The notes beneath the pieces are model-generated. The model did not search any database. It was not told where the DNA came from and saw only the letters and a list, made by a program, of their open reading frames with translations. From Bacteroidales bacterium (lineage in GTDB: Bacteria > Bacteroidota > Bacteroidia > Bacteroidales > VadinHA17), in assembly GCA_029974835.1 (NCBI GenBank), contig JARKQN010000097.1, positions 1 through 42,333 on the forward strand: 42,333 nucleotides of DNA, given 5' to 3'. The position numbers and the translations under genes are program-made. Numbering within the stretch: the stretch's first letter is position 1; each line of letters begins with the position of its first letter. Shown here piece after piece: positions 987 through 36,221 of the stretch.

Positions 987-1850
987 ATGGAAGAGACATT
1001 CAAAGAATGGGCCGACAAGCTGGTTCCGTGGCTGCTGAGCCACGGTTTGAAAATGCTGCTGATAGCTGCAGGCGCTTATATCCTTAATAAAATACTTAAC
1101 AGGGTTATCGACAGGGCTGTAAGGCTTGCAGTGATAAGAGACGGGACAATGACTGTGGAAGCCGAGAGACAGAGAGAGGATACACTTATCAGGATTTTCA
1201 ACGGTGCCAAGGGAATTGTAATACTGGTTATTGCCGTGCTGACTATCCTGAAAGAGGCCGGGCTTGACATAGGTCCGATGCTGGCTGGAGCAGGAATAGT
1301 AGGCCTTGCCGTTGGTTTCGGAGGGCAGTATATGATAAGGGATATAATATCGGGGCTTTTTATCATCCTCGAGAATCAGTACCGTATCGGCGATGTTATA
1401 ACAATTAACGACAAAGGCGGCGTGGTGGAAGATATCAGCCTCAGAAAAACAACACTCAGGGATATTAACGGTGTTGTACACCATATACCGCACGGTGAGA
1501 TTAAGATCGTCTCAAATCAGTCGAAAGATTTTGCCAGGGTGAATATTGACATTGGAATTGCTTACCGGTCAGACATCGAAAAAGTAATTGAAGTAGTAAA
1601 TAAAACAGGGACGGAGCTTGCCGCCGACCCGTATTTCGGCGACCTGATAATCAGCCCTCCCAGATTCCTGAGAGTCAATGAATTCGGAGATTCTGCCATC
1701 ATTATCAAGATTCTCGGCGACACAAAACCTTTGAAGCAATGGGAAGTGGCAGGTGAATTGCGCAAGCGTCTTAAGACGGCCTTCGACAGGGAAGGAATAG
1801 AGATTCCCTTCCCGCAAAGGGTTGTTCATACAGCCGGGACAAAAGAGTAA
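987..1850 (+). CDS. Mechanosensitive ion channel, MscS family
   Basis: 287-aa small-conductance mechanosensitive channel, an inner-membrane protein that opens under hypo-osmotic stress. About three hydrophobic helices fall at residues 17-40, 70-90 and 93-120. The pore-lining third helix has the typical Gly/Ala pattern (AGAGIVGLAVGFGGQ) followed by the amphipathic segment and the MscS beta-domain entry ENQYRIGDVITI. The C-terminal part (about 130-280) fits the cytoplasmic cage and contains the family's VHHIPHGEI-type strand. It starts 45 nt after the OsmC-like gene and is followed 25 nt later by the aminotransferase gene, so co-transcription is possible. Length is typical of the short MscS class. 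Confidence 0.93.
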   Translation: MEETFKEWADKLVPWLLSHGLKMLLIAAGAYILNKILNRVIDRAVRLAVIRDGTMTVEAERQREDTLIRIFNGAKGIVILVIAVLTILKEAGLDIGPMLAGAGIVGLAVGFGGQYMIRDIISGLFIILENQYRIGDVITINDKGGVVEDISLRKTTLRDINGVVHHIPHGEIKIVSNQSKDFARVNIDIGIAYRSDIEKVIEVVNKTGTELAADPYFGDLIISPPRFLRVNEFGDSAIIIKILGDTKPLKQWEVAGELRKRLKTAFDREGIEIPFPQRVVHTAGTKE

Positions 1851-1875
1851 CGCGCAAAAAATTAAATCGATTGAA

Positions 1876-3384
1876 ATGAATACTTCCGAGAGCCATTTTG
1901 AAAAGTTCAGAAAGAAGATAGTAGGGATAGATGCCACAATCCTGACTCCGTTCGGTGAGAAGAAAATTGTTTACGCCGACTGGATAGCGAGCGGAAGGCT
2001 TTATGAACCCATAGAGAAAAGAATATCGGATGAGATCGGGAAGCTTGTAGGCAACACACATTCGGAGTCGAGCGCAACAGGGGCAGCTATGACCGGGGCC
2101 TACAGGATGGCTCAGAAAATTGTCAAGAAACATGTAAATGCAGATGAGAATGATGTTCTGATCTTTACCGGGTCGGGTATGACCGGTGCTATCGCAAAGC
2201 TTCAGAGGATACTCGGTCTGAAAGTTCCGGAGCAGGCGGCGAGGTACTGCAGCATGCCGGGTGCTGCCGGCTTCGGCAAATGCAAGGATATACCAAACAG
2301 TAACAGACCTGTCGTTTTTATTACACATATTGAACACCACTCAAATCACACATCATGGTTTGAGACCCTTGCCGAAGTGGTTATTATTGAACCCGGACCC
2401 AGGCTTACCGTAAATCCTGATTCCCTGAGAAAGGAGATTGTAAAGTACCGCGACAGGCCCCTGCTTATCGGATCCTTTTCCGCATGCTCAAATGTGACCG
2501 GGTATTTCCCGCCATACAGGGAACTGGCGAAGATTATGCACGAGAATAACGGGTATTGTTTTGTCGATTTTGCAGCCTCGGCCCCTTATGTTGACATTGA
2601 CATGCATCCTGCCGATCCGATGGAGCATCTGGATGCAATATTCTTCTCGCCTCATAAGTTTCTGGGAGGGCCTGGCAGCAGCGGAGTTCTGGTGTTCAGT
2701 AAAAAGCTATATCACAACTACTCCCCCGACACCCCCGGCGGCGGAACAGTAAAATGGACAAACAGGTGGGGCGGGTACAGCTACATTTCTGACATTGAAG
2801 TTAAGGAAGACGGAGGAACCCCGGGTTTCCTGCAGGGAATTAAATCGGCGCTTGCCATCAGGCTGAAAGAGGCGATGGGAACATCCATGATCCACCGCAG
2901 GGAGAAGGAGCTTCTTTCCCTGGCATTCCCGGAGCTTAAGAAAATCCGTGGAATGCATATTCTTGCAGAAGACATCACAGAACGGCTGGGGGTAATTTCA
3001 TTTTATATTGACAATCTTCACCATAATCTGGTAACCAGACTTCTCAACGATTATTACGGGATACAGGTCAGAGGCGGTTGTTCGTGTGCAGGCACTTACG
3101 GTCATTATCTGCTTGATGTGGATTTTAAGCTGTCGAAGGAGATCACAGAAAGGATAGAAGCGGGAGATTTATCCCTTAAGCCGGGCTGGATAAGGTTATC
3201 ACTTCATCCCACCATGACCGATGAGGAGTTGCTTTTCATAACCGGTGCTATTGCTGAAATTGCGGAGAGAGGTAAGGAAATGGGCAGGGATTATGTTTAT
3301 GACAAGCACACCAATGAATTCTGTCATAAGAATTTCAGTGATAAACTGCCATGTGAAATTAAAAACTGGTTTTCTGTAATCTGA
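1876..3384 (+). CDS. Class V aminotransferase / cysteine-desulfurase-like PLP enzyme
   Basis: 502-aa PLP-dependent enzyme of fold type I, class V. The Schiff-base lysine is K261 in the motif SPHKFLGGPGSSG, and the PLP-binding aspartate lies in YCFVDFAASAP. A Cys motif GGCSCAG (C402, C404) near the C-terminal domain occupies the position of the persulfide-forming cysteine of SufS/NifS-type desulfurases. Selenocysteine lyase or isopenicillin-N-epimerase-like activities cannot be excluded. It is longer than SufS (about 400 aa), with an insertion around residues 100-140 and a C-terminal extension. ATG 1876 is preferred over an in-frame ATG at 1822 that lies inside the MscS gene; the following protein sequence starts the conserved part soon after. 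Transcription may continue into tRNA-Lys, which has its own promoter. Confidence 0.85.
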   Translation: MNTSESHFEKFRKKIVGIDATILTPFGEKKIVYADWIASGRLYEPIEKRISDEIGKLVGNTHSESSATGAAMTGAYRMAQKIVKKHVNADENDVLIFTGSGMTGAIAKLQRILGLKVPEQAARYCSMPGAAGFGKCKDIPNSNRPVVFITHIEHHSNHTSWFETLAEVVIIEPGPRLTVNPDSLRKEIVKYRDRPLLIGSFSACSNVTGYFPPYRELAKIMHENNGYCFVDFAASAPYVDIDMHPADPMEHLDAIFFSPHKFLGGPGSSGVLVFSKKLYHNYSPDTPGGGTVKWTNRWGGYSYISDIEVKEDGGTPGFLQGIKSALAIRLKEAMGTSMIHRREKELLSLAFPELKKIRGMHILAEDITERLGVISFYIDNLHHNLVTRLLNDYYGIQVRGGCSCAGTYGHYLLDVDFKLSKEITERIEAGDLSLKPGWIRLSLHPTMTDEELLFITGAIAEIAERGKEMGRDYVYDKHTNEFCHKNFSDKLPCEIKNWFSVI

Positions 3385-3399
3385 AATGATACTTTTTTA

Positions 3400-3407
3400 T
3401 AAATTTG
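3400..3407 (+). promoter_or_regulatory. -7 element of tRNA-Lys
   Basis: TAAATTTG matches the Bacteroidota -7 consensus TAnnTTTG exactly and ends 10 bp before the tRNA. No good -33 TTTG is seen at the usual distance. Confidence 0.55.
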
Positions 3408-3417
3408 CAGCCGATTC

Positions 3418-3490
3418 CGGCCCGTAGCTCAGCTGGTAGAGCACGTGACTCTTAATCATGGGGTCGAGAGTTCGATCCTCTCCGGGCCGA
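3418..3490 (+). tRNA. tRNA-Lys (anticodon CTT)
   Basis: 73-nt cloverleaf: acceptor CGGCCCG/CGGGCCG, D-arm GCTCAGCTGGTAGAGC, anticodon stem CGTGA/TCATG with loop CTCTTAA (anticodon CTT), T-arm GAGAG-TTCGATC-CTCTC, and discriminator A at 3490. CCA is not encoded. It reads lysine AAG codons. Confidence 0.95.
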
Positions 3491-3497
3491 CTCAAAG

Positions 3498-3536
3498 AAA
3501 GGGAAGTTGCCATAAAAGTGTGACTTCCCTTTTTAT
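3498..3536 (+). terminator. Rho-independent terminator after tRNA-Lys
   Basis: AAAGGGAAGT (3498-3507) pairs with ACTTCCCTTT (3523-3532) and is followed directly by a T-rich tract. The 10-bp stem and its position 8 nt after the tRNA make this a convincing terminator. Confidence 0.82.
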
Positions 3537-3815
3537 TTCAGAGCATTCCGGCCCGTCATTGAAGGCGAAGTAATAACCGTCAGTAATTATGAGCAACCGA
3601 AGCAGAAGATAGTTAATTCGTGCAATGATTGGTTTAAAAGGAGTTATCTGCTGCAGGGTATAAATAAAAGGTTTTTTATTTCCAGGAGGCTAAAGAGGCT
3701 TTTAATAAATTAAGGTATGATTGCTGACCGGACATTACAATGATTAGTTGTTTTCTTCTGAAATATTAGAAAAGGGTTCAGGGATTTACAGCAGGGTTTT
3801 TATTTTCCGGTTTAG
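3537..3815 (+). other. Gene-free stretch with a possible open-frame remnant
   Basis: No complete gene was found between the tRNA-Lys terminator and the repeat array at 3816. One plus-strand frame stays open from 3516 to a TAA at 3711-3713 (about 65 codons) but has no usable start and overlaps the terminator. Its product is basic and ends in a run of Arg and Lys. It could be the tail of a decayed gene beside the tRNA, for example an integrated element, but no family was recognised. Confidence 0.25.
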
Positions 3816-3951
3816 AATTTTTATTATTTGATAATTTTTATTATTTGATATTTTTTATTATCTGATAAATTTTATCATTTAATATATTTTACTATTTAGT
3901 ATTTTTTATCATCTGATAATTTTTATCATCTGATAATTTTTATCACCTGAA
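3816..3951. repeat. Eight 17-bp tandem repeats forming an array of Fur/PerR-like boxes
   Basis: Eight units in perfect 17-bp phase (3816, 3833, 3850, 3867, 3884, 3901, 3918, 3935) follow the pattern AATTTTTATCATCTGAT with drift; a ninth at 3952 is unrecognisable. Unit junctions read TGATAATTTTTATCA (3914-3928 and 3931-3945) and TGATAAATTTTATCA (3863-3877). The last is a perfect 7-1-7 inverted repeat, and the first two differ at one position from the classical Fur box TGATAATnATTATCA. The array lies 38 bp upstream of the -7 element of the Fur-family gene at 4027, so autoregulation by cooperative binding is the natural reading. Confidence 0.85.
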
Positions 3952-3988
3952 AATATTTCTTAAAGAATAATTTTTCTAAAAAACTTCC

Positions 3989-3996
3989 TATCTTTG
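3989..3996 (+). promoter_or_regulatory. -7 element of the Fur-family gene
   Basis: TATCTTTG fits TAnnTTTG. It overlaps a TTG triplet at 3994 that would otherwise extend the reading frame, which argues that the gene starts at ATG 4027. No -33 TTTG stands at the usual 19-20 bp. Confidence 0.6.
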
Positions 3997-4026
3997 TTAT
4001 TACCTAATCTGAAAAACATAATCACC

Positions 4027-4482
4027 ATGGCCGATCTTACAGCCCCTAAAATACTTATGGATCACGGACTTAAAGTCACGCCCCAAAGAACCCTGATACT
4101 CGAAGCCCTCTTCAGCCTCGACGAACACCCGTCATACGATATCCTGATGAAATTCATGAGAGCCAGATACCCGAATATTTCTCTGGCAACTATCTATAAC
4201 ACCCTAAAACTCTTCAAAGAAAAAGGTATAATAAAACAGGTCGCCACCGGCAGCGAGGAAATCCGGTTCGATCCCGTGCAGGGAAACCACCACCACCTCT
4301 ACTTCAGAGATACCGATAAACTCGAAGATTTCGAAGATAAAGAACTCGACAGAATCCTTAAAAACTACTTCATTAAAAAACAAATTCCCGGATTTAATAT
4401 AGAAAATATAACCCTAATGGTCACCGGACACGCAGAAAAGTCAAAGACTCCGGAAAAAACAAAACAAACAAAACAAATCTGA
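4027..4482 (+). CDS. Fur-family transcriptional regulator, PerR-like, cysteine-free
   Basis: 151-aa metal-dependent repressor of the Fur/PerR family. The winged helix is visible with recognition helix ISLATIYNTLKLFKEKG at about 51-67, followed by the dimerisation domain. Candidate regulatory metal ligands are H34, D82, H88-H90 and D101. At the position where Fur usually has Glu (GKVIEF) this protein has Asp (DKLEDF), as PerR does, which favours a peroxide sensor. It has no cysteine at all, so the CxxC structural zinc site of most Fur and PerR proteins is missing. The Lys/Thr-rich tail is probably disordered. Neighbouring ferritin and peroxiredoxin genes fit a peroxide-stress role. Upstream lies the 17-bp box array, probably its own operator. 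Confidence 0.88.
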   Translation: MADLTAPKILMDHGLKVTPQRTLILEALFSLDEHPSYDILMKFMRARYPNISLATIYNTLKLFKEKGIIKQVATGSEEIRFDPVQGNHHHLYFRDTDKLEDFEDKELDRILKNYFIKKQIPGFNIENITLMVTGHAEKSKTPEKTKQTKQI

Positions 4483-4567
4483 TATACTGTTAATAACCGG
4501 AATGCAGAAGATAACTTATTCAGCATTATTGACAAAACCGAAAATTCAAACTTAAAATAATTAAACT

Positions 4568-5068
4568 ATGGCAGAAATCGGAAGATCAATCGTAAAAATG
4601 AATGTTGATGAACTTATCAACCTTCTTAACAAAGCCCTGGCCGATGAATGGCTGGCCTACTACCAGTACTGGATAGGCGCAAAGGTCGTTAAAGGCCCCA
4701 TGAAGGACGCCGTTATGTCCGAACTTAACCTCCACGCCACTGAGGAACTTACTCATGCACAACTGCTCGTCGACCGTATCATCCAACTGGGCGGGACCCC
4801 TCTGCTTACCCCCGAAGATTGGATGAAAATGACAAACTGCGGATACGATGCCCCGGTTGATCCTTATGTGGAGGAAATCCTGGAACAAAACATCAAAGGA
4901 GAACAATGCGCAATAAGAACATATAACGCTCTGCTTGATATTACAAGGGAAAAAGACCCTGTTACCTACGACATCATTGTTCAGATTATTACCGATGAGG
5001 TGGAACATGAGGAAGACCTTATGGCCCTCAGGGAAGACCTTGAACTTATGCTCGCAAGAAGAAAATAA
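4568..5068 (+). CDS. Dps-like ferritin (DPSL / bacterioferritin-like)
   Basis: 166-aa four-helix ferritin-like protein that should bind a di-iron centre and oxidise Fe(II) with peroxide, storing iron and protecting DNA. Di-iron ligands can be traced as E27 (ADEWLAYYQY), E60 with H63 (EELTHA), E112 (KGEQ), and E144 with H147 (DEVEHEED), that is, the two ExxH motifs of bacterioferritins. The two cysteines C91 and C114 match the Cys pair of the Dps-like (DPSL) subfamily described in Sulfolobus and Bacteroides. The gene sits 85 nt after the Fur-family gene and 37 nt before a peroxiredoxin gene, all on the same strand, so one peroxide regulon is likely. No separate clear promoter was seen. Confidence 0.88.
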   Translation: MAEIGRSIVKMNVDELINLLNKALADEWLAYYQYWIGAKVVKGPMKDAVMSELNLHATEELTHAQLLVDRIIQLGGTPLLTPEDWMKMTNCGYDAPVDPYVEEILEQNIKGEQCAIRTYNALLDITREKDPVTYDIIVQIITDEVEHEEDLMALREDLELMLARRK

Positions 5069-5105
5069 CCAAATTTCTTAATCATTAATCTTAAAACATA
5101 CAACT

Positions 5106-5813
5106 ATGTGCGATGAACATGCTTTCCCGATGCCGCGAATAGGCGACAAAGCCCCGGAATTTAAGGCAATCACAACCCAGGGCGAAATCAATTTCCCCAA
5201 CGACTACAAAGGAAGCTGGGTAATTCTCTTCAGCCATCCTGCCGACTTCACTCCTGTCTGTACTTCAGAGTTCATGACTTTTGCCACAATGGAAAAACAA
5301 TTCAATGAGGCAAACTGTAAACTTGTCGGACTATCTGTTGACGGACTCTACAGCCATATTGCATGGCTGCGTACCATCAAGGAAAAAATCGAATATAAGG
5401 GAATGAAAAACGTCGAGGTGACTTTCCCCCTGATCGAAGATATTACCATGGAGGTGGCAAAACTTTACGGAATGTTACAGCCCGGAGAGAGCTCCACCAA
5501 AGCAGTCAGAGCAGTCTTTTTTATCGATCCCAAGGGTATTATCAGAACAATAATCTATTACCCGCTCAGCCTGGGCCGTAACTTTGATGAACTTTACAGG
5601 GTACTCATCGGACTACAAACCGCCGACGCCTTCTCGGTGGCTCTTCCGGCCGACTGGAGACCGGGCGATGATGTGATTGTACCTCCTGCAGGGTCCTGCG
5701 GCGCAGCTAAAGACCGTATGGAAGGCAAGGAGGATATGAAATGCTACGACTGGTTCTTCTGCACCAAACCTATCCCTAAGGAAACTGTACTGAAGAAAAT
5801 TCTTAACAAATAA
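5106..5813 (+). CDS. Peroxiredoxin (Prx6 / AhpC-TSA family)
   Basis: 235-aa thiol peroxidase reducing H2O2 and organic peroxides in the cytoplasm. The peroxidatic site is PADFTPVC with T49 and C52. The length and the extended C-terminal arm are typical of Prx6-type enzymes from archaea and anaerobes. Additional cysteines lie in the C-terminal segment (GSCGAAKDR, KCYDWFFC), as in archaeal homologues where they support thiol recycling. It is the third gene of the Fur-Dps-Prx cluster and is followed by a terminator. The N-terminal MCDEHAFPMP adds one more Cys. Confidence 0.93.
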   Translation: MCDEHAFPMPRIGDKAPEFKAITTQGEINFPNDYKGSWVILFSHPADFTPVCTSEFMTFATMEKQFNEANCKLVGLSVDGLYSHIAWLRTIKEKIEYKGMKNVEVTFPLIEDITMEVAKLYGMLQPGESSTKAVRAVFFIDPKGIIRTIIYYPLSLGRNFDELYRVLIGLQTADAFSVALPADWRPGDDVIVPPAGSCGAAKDRMEGKEDMKCYDWFFCTKPIPKETVLKKILNK

Positions 5814-5838
5814 TCCACAAGGGGACATTAACTGAAAG

Positions 5839-5893
5839 TGTCTCAGAAAACTACAACTACATAACAGTTGTTTGAATTTTGAGACATTTTTTT
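5839..5893 (+). terminator. Terminator of the peroxiredoxin gene, nested hairpins
   Basis: TGTCTCA (5839-5845) pairs with TGAGACA (5880-5886), and inside the loop ACAACT and AGTTGT form a second 6-bp stem. A run of T follows from 5887. The T-run then merges into the -33 region of the next promoter. Confidence 0.72.
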
Positions 5894-5924
5894 TTGCTTT
5901 TTGAACGTACGTTCATTATCTTTG
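5891..5924 (+). promoter_or_regulatory. Promoter with TGAACGTACGTTCA operator in the spacer
   Basis: TTTTTG (5891-5896), a 20-bp spacer and TATCTTTG (5917-5924) form a full Bacteroidota promoter. The spacer holds the perfect 14-bp palindrome TGAACGTACGTTCA (5902-5915). A repressor bound here would block RNA polymerase. The shape resembles operators of TetR-family regulators, but no tetR gene is in the window, so the regulator must act from elsewhere. Confidence 0.8.
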
Positions 5925-5936
5925 CAAAAAAAAAGA

Positions 5937-6188
5937 ATGAAACCCCTTATTGTAAAAATTTTTATAATTCTTCCTCTTATCCTGTTCGCAGATTATATAA
6001 TCCTTGCCTTACTGGGTTGCTCAGCCTGTCTTTTCGGATCAGGTGATGATTTCTACTGCGGACCATTCTGCATCATTGGTAAAATTCTTTTATTGATATC
6101 TTTTCTTTTCTTCGTATTCCTTATATATCCTGACATTAAAAACCTATACAGACACAAAAAGAATGCCCAGGCCCAGAAAGAAGCGTAA
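5937..6188 (+). CDS. Small membrane protein of unknown function
   Basis: 83-aa protein with two hydrophobic segments (about residues 4-24 and 45-66) separated by a short Cys-rich stretch (GCSACLFG, YCGPFC). The C-terminus is charged (HKKNAQAQKEA) and probably cytoplasmic. ATG 5937 is preferred to an in-frame upstream start at 5901, which lies in the promoter spacer. The four cysteines between the helices could bind a metal or form disulfides; this is speculation. It is first in an operon with DUF134, OsmC-like and NifX-like genes and overlaps the DUF134 gene by 26 nt. Confidence 0.72.
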   Translation: MKPLIVKIFIILPLILFADYIILALLGCSACLFGSGDDFYCGPFCIIGKILLLISFLFFVFLIYPDIKNLYRHKKNAQAQKEA

Positions 6189-36137: not shown

Positions 36138-36221
36138 GCTGAACGCTGAACGCTGAACACTGAACGCGGAACGCTGAACGCTGAACGCGGAACGCGGAAC
36201 GCTGAACGCGGAACGCTGAAC
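36138..36221. repeat. Twelve 7-bp tandem repeats (GCTGAAC)
   Basis: Exactly 84 bp made of twelve heptamers: seven GCTGAAC, four GCGGAAC and one ACTGAAC. It starts 4 bp after the creD stop. Slippage could change its length. From 36222 to 36410 no further feature was recognised. Confidence 0.93.

Follow-up and report, generated by a model that had tools for sequence, protein, structure and literature searches.

Phased arrays of Fur/PerR-type boxes at a PerR-like gene and at dispersed intergenic sites in a Bacteroidales genus, possibly marking recurrent single-strand exposure

Classical Fur/PerR operators have one to three boxes, often overlapping, and the 7-1-7 model of these boxes comes from Fur and PerR of Bacillus subtilis. 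In the window analysed here, a 42,333-nt stretch of a Bacteroidales genome (G000; 2.9 Mb, 127 contigs, 92% complete), an initial annotation described eight 17-bp repeats in perfect phase upstream of a gene for a Fur-family protein and read their junctions as Fur boxes. Is such an array an ordinary operator of unusual length, or does it represent something else?

The eight phased repeats proved to be real. Tandem Repeats Finder reported a period of 17 bp at 3816-3943 (7.5 copies) and at 3816-3958 (8.4 copies, 83% matches). The lag-17 identity in the 400 bp 5' of the PerR-like gene is 0.81 (z 11.1), a value equalled by none of 200 dinucleotide shuffles; here and below, E-values and shuffle figures are per-test values. 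The perfect 7-1-7 palindrome claimed at 3863-3877 is likewise present. Beyond the window, a 231-kb sample of the same genome contained no second 17-bp array (threshold 0.60). The shuffles, this sample and the control tiles described below rule out a chance repeat as the origin of the array. The -7-like element (Table 1) fits the Bacteroidota motif TAnnTTTG, and the array thus likely lies upstream of the promoter, not across it. Two other repeats occur in the window, namely a separate tandem array of twelve copies of the 7-bp GCTGAAC (36138-36221, 89% matches) and, at the contig edge (1-253), a 118-bp repeat in two copies that are 98% alike. Two further contigs of G000 (L144, L157) show lags of 14, 21 and 28 bp that may belong to the GCTGAAC-array class.

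Table 1. Features of the window (positions of the 42,333-nt stretch) and locations of the other 17-bp arrays of the same genome.
Feature	Position or location	Strand	Remark
tRNA-Lys(CTT), 5' of array	3418..3491	+	ARAGORN (window only)
GC-skew inversion zone centred on the window array	1800..6000	.	
17-bp array	3812..3981	+	ten in-register units: eight clear, two degenerate (right end)
Left-end array unit TTAGAATTTTTATTATT	3812..3828	+	
Perfect 7-1-7 palindrome TGATAAATTTTATCA	3863..3877	.	sequence reading
Predicted -7 promoter element, Bacteroidota type, TATCTTTG	3989..3996	+	sequence reading
Fur-family PerR-like gene, 151 aa	4027..4482	+	ATG at 4027
Dps/ferritin-like protein	4568..5068	+	
Peroxiredoxin	5106..5813	+	
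G000 array	between 5'-nucleotidase and acyltransferase genes		names from translations
G000 array C32 (L112)	contig ends in array		
G000 array	between lacI-type and glucuronidase-like genes		names from translations
G000 array	before YqeY-like gene		name from translation
G000 array	gltB-gltD gap		names from translations
G000 array	before GH92-like gene		name from translation

The gene that follows the array indeed codes for a Fur-family protein (PF01475, E 1.5e-24) with no Cys among its 151 residues. Its best PDB match is B. subtilis PerR (2fe3, E 9.6e-22), and H37, D85, H91, H93 and D104 of the latter are aligned with identical residues. The structural Zn(Cys)4 site is absent, with C96 and C99 replaced; the ligand numbering is that of the B. 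subtilis protein. Zero or one Cys is also found in 36 of the 41 listed proteins of the genus. The best NCBIfam model, TransRegPerRClab, gives 81.5 bits, below the PerR equivalog cut-off of 180. The genes immediately 3' of it code for a Dps/ferritin-like protein and then a peroxiredoxin, a peroxide-defence neighbourhood as expected for PerR. We call the product PerR-like and consider it a putative peroxide sensor. By eye, a tRNA-Lys-like sequence, whole or reduced to its 3' part, can also be recognized upstream in L003, L014, L016 and L036.

We searched 62 genomes of the genus and found a perR match at E 1e-18 or better in 36 of them. In a tree of 70 orthologues, 28 proteins form a clade, called clade A (support 97/93); the group A and B labels had been assigned by eye and were then checked against the tree. 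An array was called where the lag-17 identity reached at least 0.50 in an 85-bp window within 400 bp upstream. Two loci at contig edges (L005, L022) and two copies (L053 of L020, L033 of L032) were excluded, the distant matches L026-L031 were kept out of the group counts, and JAKPDL010000108.1 and G084:C7, which share perR upstream scores, were treated as one. On this basis, 17-bp-phased arrays precede 24 of the 27 clade-A loci with upstream DNA, the exceptions being L008, L010 and L039. The 13 other loci of the genus have none, and neither do 233 control tiles drawn from the loci analysed and from the window. The mean lag spectrum of clade A peaks at 17, 34, 51 and 68 bp (13.3, 11.5, 9.1 and 7.7; next 2.7), and lag 17 ranks third (2.7) at the 13 other loci.

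At the level of the order, six of the best-scoring 29 loci reach the array threshold (at most three do so at any other lag), 93 of 393 genomes being listed with a match. Lag 17 is again the top lag (5.1; next 3.1), and one or a few boxes lie near the start of many of the listed orthologues. Comparison with related genomes, the check proposed in the initial annotation, thus revealed arrays before clade-A orthologues in copy numbers from 6 to 23, as counted with a simple extension rule. At L040, 11 units are obtained with 400-420 bp searched and 23 with 700 bp. By the same rule this locus (L040/L169, genome G068) harbours the longest perR array, which extends from 606 to 215 bp before the gene. 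The arrays in related genomes rule out that the feature is private to one metagenome-assembled genome. As 24 of 27 clade-A loci carry it even though the box itself changes, compared with none of 233 tiles, phased operator arrays are an old feature of this gene. We take the array to have grown out of a short operator that preceded it.

Are the repeat units Fur boxes? Units were pooled from the seven arrays of G000 (79 units) and the nine arrays of its sister genome G084 (98 units), some of them degenerate. They give the consensus TRATAAW-T-TTTAYYA with a less conserved 2-bp linker. Column complementarity peaks at the 7-1-7 centre (position 8), with correlations of 0.70 in G000 (79 units) and 0.82 in G084 (87 units, array C39 left out); the next-best dyad centres reach 0.45 and 0.46, respectively. 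The claim of the initial annotation therefore stands for the pooled units, which are Fur/PerR-type 7-1-7 boxes in 17-bp phase, but not for the consensus of the window array, whose dyad score of 10/17 is at chance level. Evidence for the dyad thus comes from the pooled columns and from individual boxes. Other species of the clade have GAGAATNATTCTC-like units, and some have T-rich ones devoid of a dyad. Given these T-rich units and the chance-level consensus of the window array, some units may bind no dimer. The steeper switch put forward in the initial annotation, through dimers polymerising on alternating DNA faces, would be a prediction of the array.

The drift of the units with retention of their phase, also pointed out at first, extends to the clade, in which the 17-bp phase is kept and the box shifts between GATAAT and GAGAAT types. 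In one subclade (L035, L004, L045, L019), the arrays upstream of perR are T-rich, with the dyad weak or lost and the phase kept; an ATTCTC half-box is visible by eye at their distal end. Within clade A, proteins with Asn pair with T-type boxes, and the window locus scores equally for both types. Six order-level Asn proteins (L018, L054, L062, L064, L071, L074) have G-type boxes, and because of such exceptions, strict covariation between recognition residue and box was dropped as proof of the binder.

The view of the array as a feature of the perR promoter alone had to be abandoned, since six further arrays of the same unit are present elsewhere in G000. A degenerate two-unit pattern gave 42/37 matches in this genome, all of them in the seven arrays, and the reversed pattern gave 0/0. 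Unrelated genes flank five of the six, and the remaining one is at the end of a contig (Table 1). The sister genome G084 has nine arrays, one at perR and eight more, with neighbours that include genes for a histidine kinase, an isomerase-like barrel, a GH88 protein, a 3-keto-disaccharide hydrolase, a DUF6807 protein, a diacylglycerol kinase and sulfate activation. Three sites are common to both genomes, namely perR, the lacI/glucuronidase site and the nucleotidase site. The dispersed arrays occur in both orientations relative to genes. A TTAGAA-type first unit is common to the window array, C84 of G000, and the perR, C193b, C39 and C181 arrays of G084. The TGATAA-type unit of G000 is abundant in only these two of 60 genomes of the genus; six others have one to three matches to it. 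Within a genome, the perR and dispersed units look alike by eye in G000, G084, G082 and G002, and poorly so in G079 and G068. Arrays are present in G066 and G027 with no clade-A perR detected in these incomplete genomes. Together with the non-peroxide neighbours, this suggests that another Fur protein may be the binder. The dispersed arrays weaken the notion of a simple promoter operator; the window array is probably at once a long, phased version of an old type of Fur/PerR operator and a member of a dispersed set.

Several arrays of other genomes deserve mention. In G066 (L160) and G079 (L123), arrays of GAGAATNATTCTC-type boxes lie directly upstream of hutH, a recurrent non-perR site, and GAGAAT-type arrays adjoin orthologous-looking TIM-barrel genes in G082 (L121) and G079 (L122). 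A near-perfect array of unit GAGAATTATTTGTATTT (lag identity 0.98) is found at 2387-2649 of L162 (G027), upstream, by eye, of a papain-type-protease-like gene. That of L164 (G002; 2242-2618) spans 377 bp with unit AGGAATNATTCTCAAAT and, by eye, an internal duplication of longer period. The contigs of L112 (C32 of G000) and L122 (C48 of G079) end inside or just beyond 17-bp arrays; short-read assemblies may thus break there, and the array counts may be lower bounds.

The arrays coincide with local inversions of GC skew. For the window array, the skew is +0.16 on the left and -0.17 on the right over 1 kb, and +0.11 and -0.11 over 2 kb. All 15 arrays of G000 and G084 with two flanks (C32 of G000, in which the contig ends, was excluded) have a positive left-minus-right difference over 1 kb, and it is at least 0.2 for 13 of them; at random positions the standard deviation of this difference is 0.098. 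Over 300 bp, the sign changes from plus to minus at 13 of the 15 (exceptions, C88 and C193a). The pooled skew is +0.38 at the left edge and -0.34 at the right edge, and it decays over approximately 1 kb leftward and 2 kb rightward. In a 273-kb sample of the window's own genome, window included, the strongest plus-to-minus inversion is the one at the perR array. This association was found post hoc and then examined in further loci, not all of which are independent of the first; the skew windows vary slightly between the two-flank, array-less and perR comparisons. At third codon positions, genes of the two directions have top-strand skews of +0.26 and +0.34 to the left of the arrays and of -0.32 and -0.20 to the right; the coding-strand background is -0.07. 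As the inversion is alike for both gene directions, transcription explains it poorly, and we consider transcription disfavoured as its cause. For a replication terminus, each chromosome would be expected to have one skew maximum that spans the replichores; here the pooled skew is lost over 1-2 kb and is seen again at the arrays of both genomes.

The inversion follows the presence of the array. Eight arrays (nine gene rows) could be compared with a sister lacking the array at the same site, C32 of G000 and C89 of G084 being excluded. None of the nine array-less rows reaches a skew flip of 0.2 (highest values, 0.16 and 0.15), whereas with the array six of the eight sites do; the other two are C193a of G084 (0.16, with no sign change) and C39 (0.15). 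The inversion also tracks array length. At perR, the flip correlates with unit number among the 24 clade-A arrays (Spearman 0.81, or 0.82 with 700 bp searched). All nine arrays of nine or more units have a flip of at least 0.25, and 2 of the 15 shorter ones exceed 0.2 (L007, L012), compared with 0 of 42 perR loci without long arrays. Phylogenetically independent contrasts are limited to three, none of them opposed (p 0.25 at best), and shared ancestry may thus inflate the correlation. The short, dyadic, dispersed arrays of G082, G066 and G079 (L123) flip little; the flip is moderate in G002 and G027.

Substitutions near the arrays were inferred from the array-less to the array-bearing sister, on the strand with its 3' end toward the array; the array-less sister served as the baseline in place of an outgroup, and comparing each change with its complement cancels the overall GC difference between the species. 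Within 700 bp of the array, A>G exceeds T>C (325 versus 150), C>T exceeds G>A (297 versus 197) and C>G exceeds G>C (103 versus 57). These asymmetries are weaker at 700-1500 bp. A>G is above T>C at all eight sites and C>T above G>A at seven, with C117 as the exception; at C193a and C39, which are among the eight, the flip is weak although the array is present. At the three G000 sites, C>G is not in excess (56 versus 57) and C>T is weak (167 versus 140). Mirror-image asymmetric substitutions over 1-2 kb, as would be expected of break hotspots, are thus present, with a smaller effect for C>T and C>G to the right of the arrays. This expectation is contradicted in part by A>C, which is in deficit (101 versus 149), and by C>A, which shows no excess (129 versus 151). 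No nuclease is known to act at these arrays.

At human meiotic break hotspots, C>N and A>N changes are described in the single strand that resection exposes over 1-2 kb (PMC7615360). The resemblance of the array spectrum to these PRDM9/SPO11 hotspots is partial. Polarity and scale agree, and both have mirrored changes of C and A on the 3'-ended strand, over approximately 2 kb on each side in the hotspots, with C>G and A>G among them; the hotspots differ in being programmed eukaryotic breaks and in their raised C>A (PMC7615360).

We tentatively favour, while placing it somewhat below an even chance, the idea that these are Fur/PerR-box arrays that, when long, become sites of recurrent single-strand exposure or breakage. 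The array would serve a Fur-family repressor, in all likelihood the adjoining PerR-like protein, as a cluster of operators with one dimer-sized 7-1-7 box per 17 bp. An ancestral operator of a few boxes would have lengthened in the genus, and similar arrays would have been gained and lost at other intergenic sites. Long arrays, of about nine units or more at perR, would cause recurrent single-strand exposure, most plausibly as protein roadblocks: a coated array might stall replication forks, a stalled fork might collapse or break, and 5' resection would then expose 3'-ended single strand for 1-2 kb in both directions. In the exposed strand, changes of the types A>G, C>T and C>G would accumulate, giving rise to the GC-skew inversion. 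Some points speak against parts of this scheme. A fork block is expected to act mainly on the origin-proximal side, and most arrays look two-sided. Furthermore, the canonical dyadic arrays of G082, G066 and G079 (L123) should bind best and yet flip little.

Other explanations of the same data were weighed. That the array is an ordinary long autoregulatory PerR operator, with cooperative repression by tandem boxes and a skew unrelated to it, is in keeping with the peroxide-related operon and with the boxes close upstream of many listed order-level orthologues, for which 17 bp is the top lag. Nevertheless, we consider it unlikely: six more arrays lie elsewhere in G000, the window array is upstream of the likely promoter, and such an operator would not explain skew inversions that are absent from array-less orthologous rows and track unit number. 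It is somewhat unlikely that the arrays are a minisatellite or repeat element, scattered between genes, that spreads or expands by slippage and breakage-repair and owes its likeness to Fur boxes to a founding perR operator, this likeness being non-functional elsewhere. The presence of an array in one sister and its absence from the other at eight sites, the two orientations relative to genes, the shared TTAGAA first units, the abundance of the TGATAA-type unit in just 2 of 60 genomes and the loss of the dyad in some arrays would all agree with this. The pooled dyad and the phase nevertheless persist in both sisters despite the drift of single units, three sites are common to the sisters, two genomes have arrays before hutH (L123, L160), and clade-A perR keeps its array in 24 of 27 cases.

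Single-strand exposure might also stem from DNA structure, with an SbcCD-type nuclease cutting hairpins or cruciforms, and not from bound protein. As single-stranded DNA, the window array folds better than its shuffles do (z -2.96, 0/200). The dyadic array of G013, on the other hand, does not fold beyond its shuffles (z -0.81), and the T-rich array of G072 has no such fold (z 0.05) and still a flip of 0.32, which disfavours a purely hairpin-based cause; we regard this possibility as distinctly unlikely. Very unlikely, in our opinion, is a strand bias that is selected, through Chi- or KOPS-like polar words, or that results from transcription converging on the array. G- and T-rich words do point at the array, as recombination or translocase signals would. 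However, none dominates, which rules out a single polar Chi-like word, and depletion broadly affects words containing C, CC or AAC; as for transcription, it does not predict the similar asymmetry that genes of both directions show at third codon positions.

Tus-Ter and RTP-Ter are protein-DNA barriers to replication forks, and a change of skew sign occurs at the terminus. The arrays have a skew sign change of this type, but it is confined to 1-2 kb and occurs at many sites. The REP/BIME repeats of enterobacteria are dispersed, intergenic, palindromic and clustered, like the arrays; the latter differ by their 17-bp Fur-box unit, by the finding of only seven to nine arrays per genome and by the skew inversion at most of them. 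The B. subtilis Fur/PerR boxes share with the arrays the 7-1-7 dyad, a TGATAAT-type half-site and an adjoining Fur-family gene, and the arrays depart from classical operators by their 6-23 abutting units, conserved 17-bp phase and copies at other intergenic sites. Desulfovibrio PerR sites such as AATAGGAATCGTTCCTGTT resemble the TAGGAAT-type units of G002, but they are tabulated as single predicted sites per gene, not as arrays (PMC545781). In Escherichia coli, repressor-bound operator arrays stop replication forks, and both collapse within 5 min and fork reversal are reported (PMC4737137). These artificial arrays resemble the ones described here in having tandem operators and a repressor coat, the coating being a prediction in our case. 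They are engineered, with 240 operators and overproduced TetR, unlike natural arrays of 6 to about 23 units (PMC4737137). Among the top-ranked matches in an open-access full-text library, we found no description of arrays like those reported here.

If the favoured reading is true, an operator array would set local mutation rates and strand bias, and a metal- or peroxide-sensing regulator would be linked to genome instability. A GC-skew inversion with an excess of A>G, C>T and C>G would then provide a computational mark for natural roadblocks or break hotspots in bacteria. The part most surprising to a specialist would be a dispersed set of arrays that marks recurrent single-strand exposure, for which the case is built on sequence statistics. 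In its strongest form, the proposal would make the dispersed operator arrays natural break hotspots, coated by a Fur-family protein and repeatedly broken, with a mirror-image mutation signature in the flanking 1-2 kb; genes beside the arrays would evolve under a mutation pressure set by the regulator and perhaps by redox conditions. We hold this extended form to be doubtful. Even without the break model, a 17-bp phase that has outlasted the change of the box points to selection on how neighbouring dimers pack.
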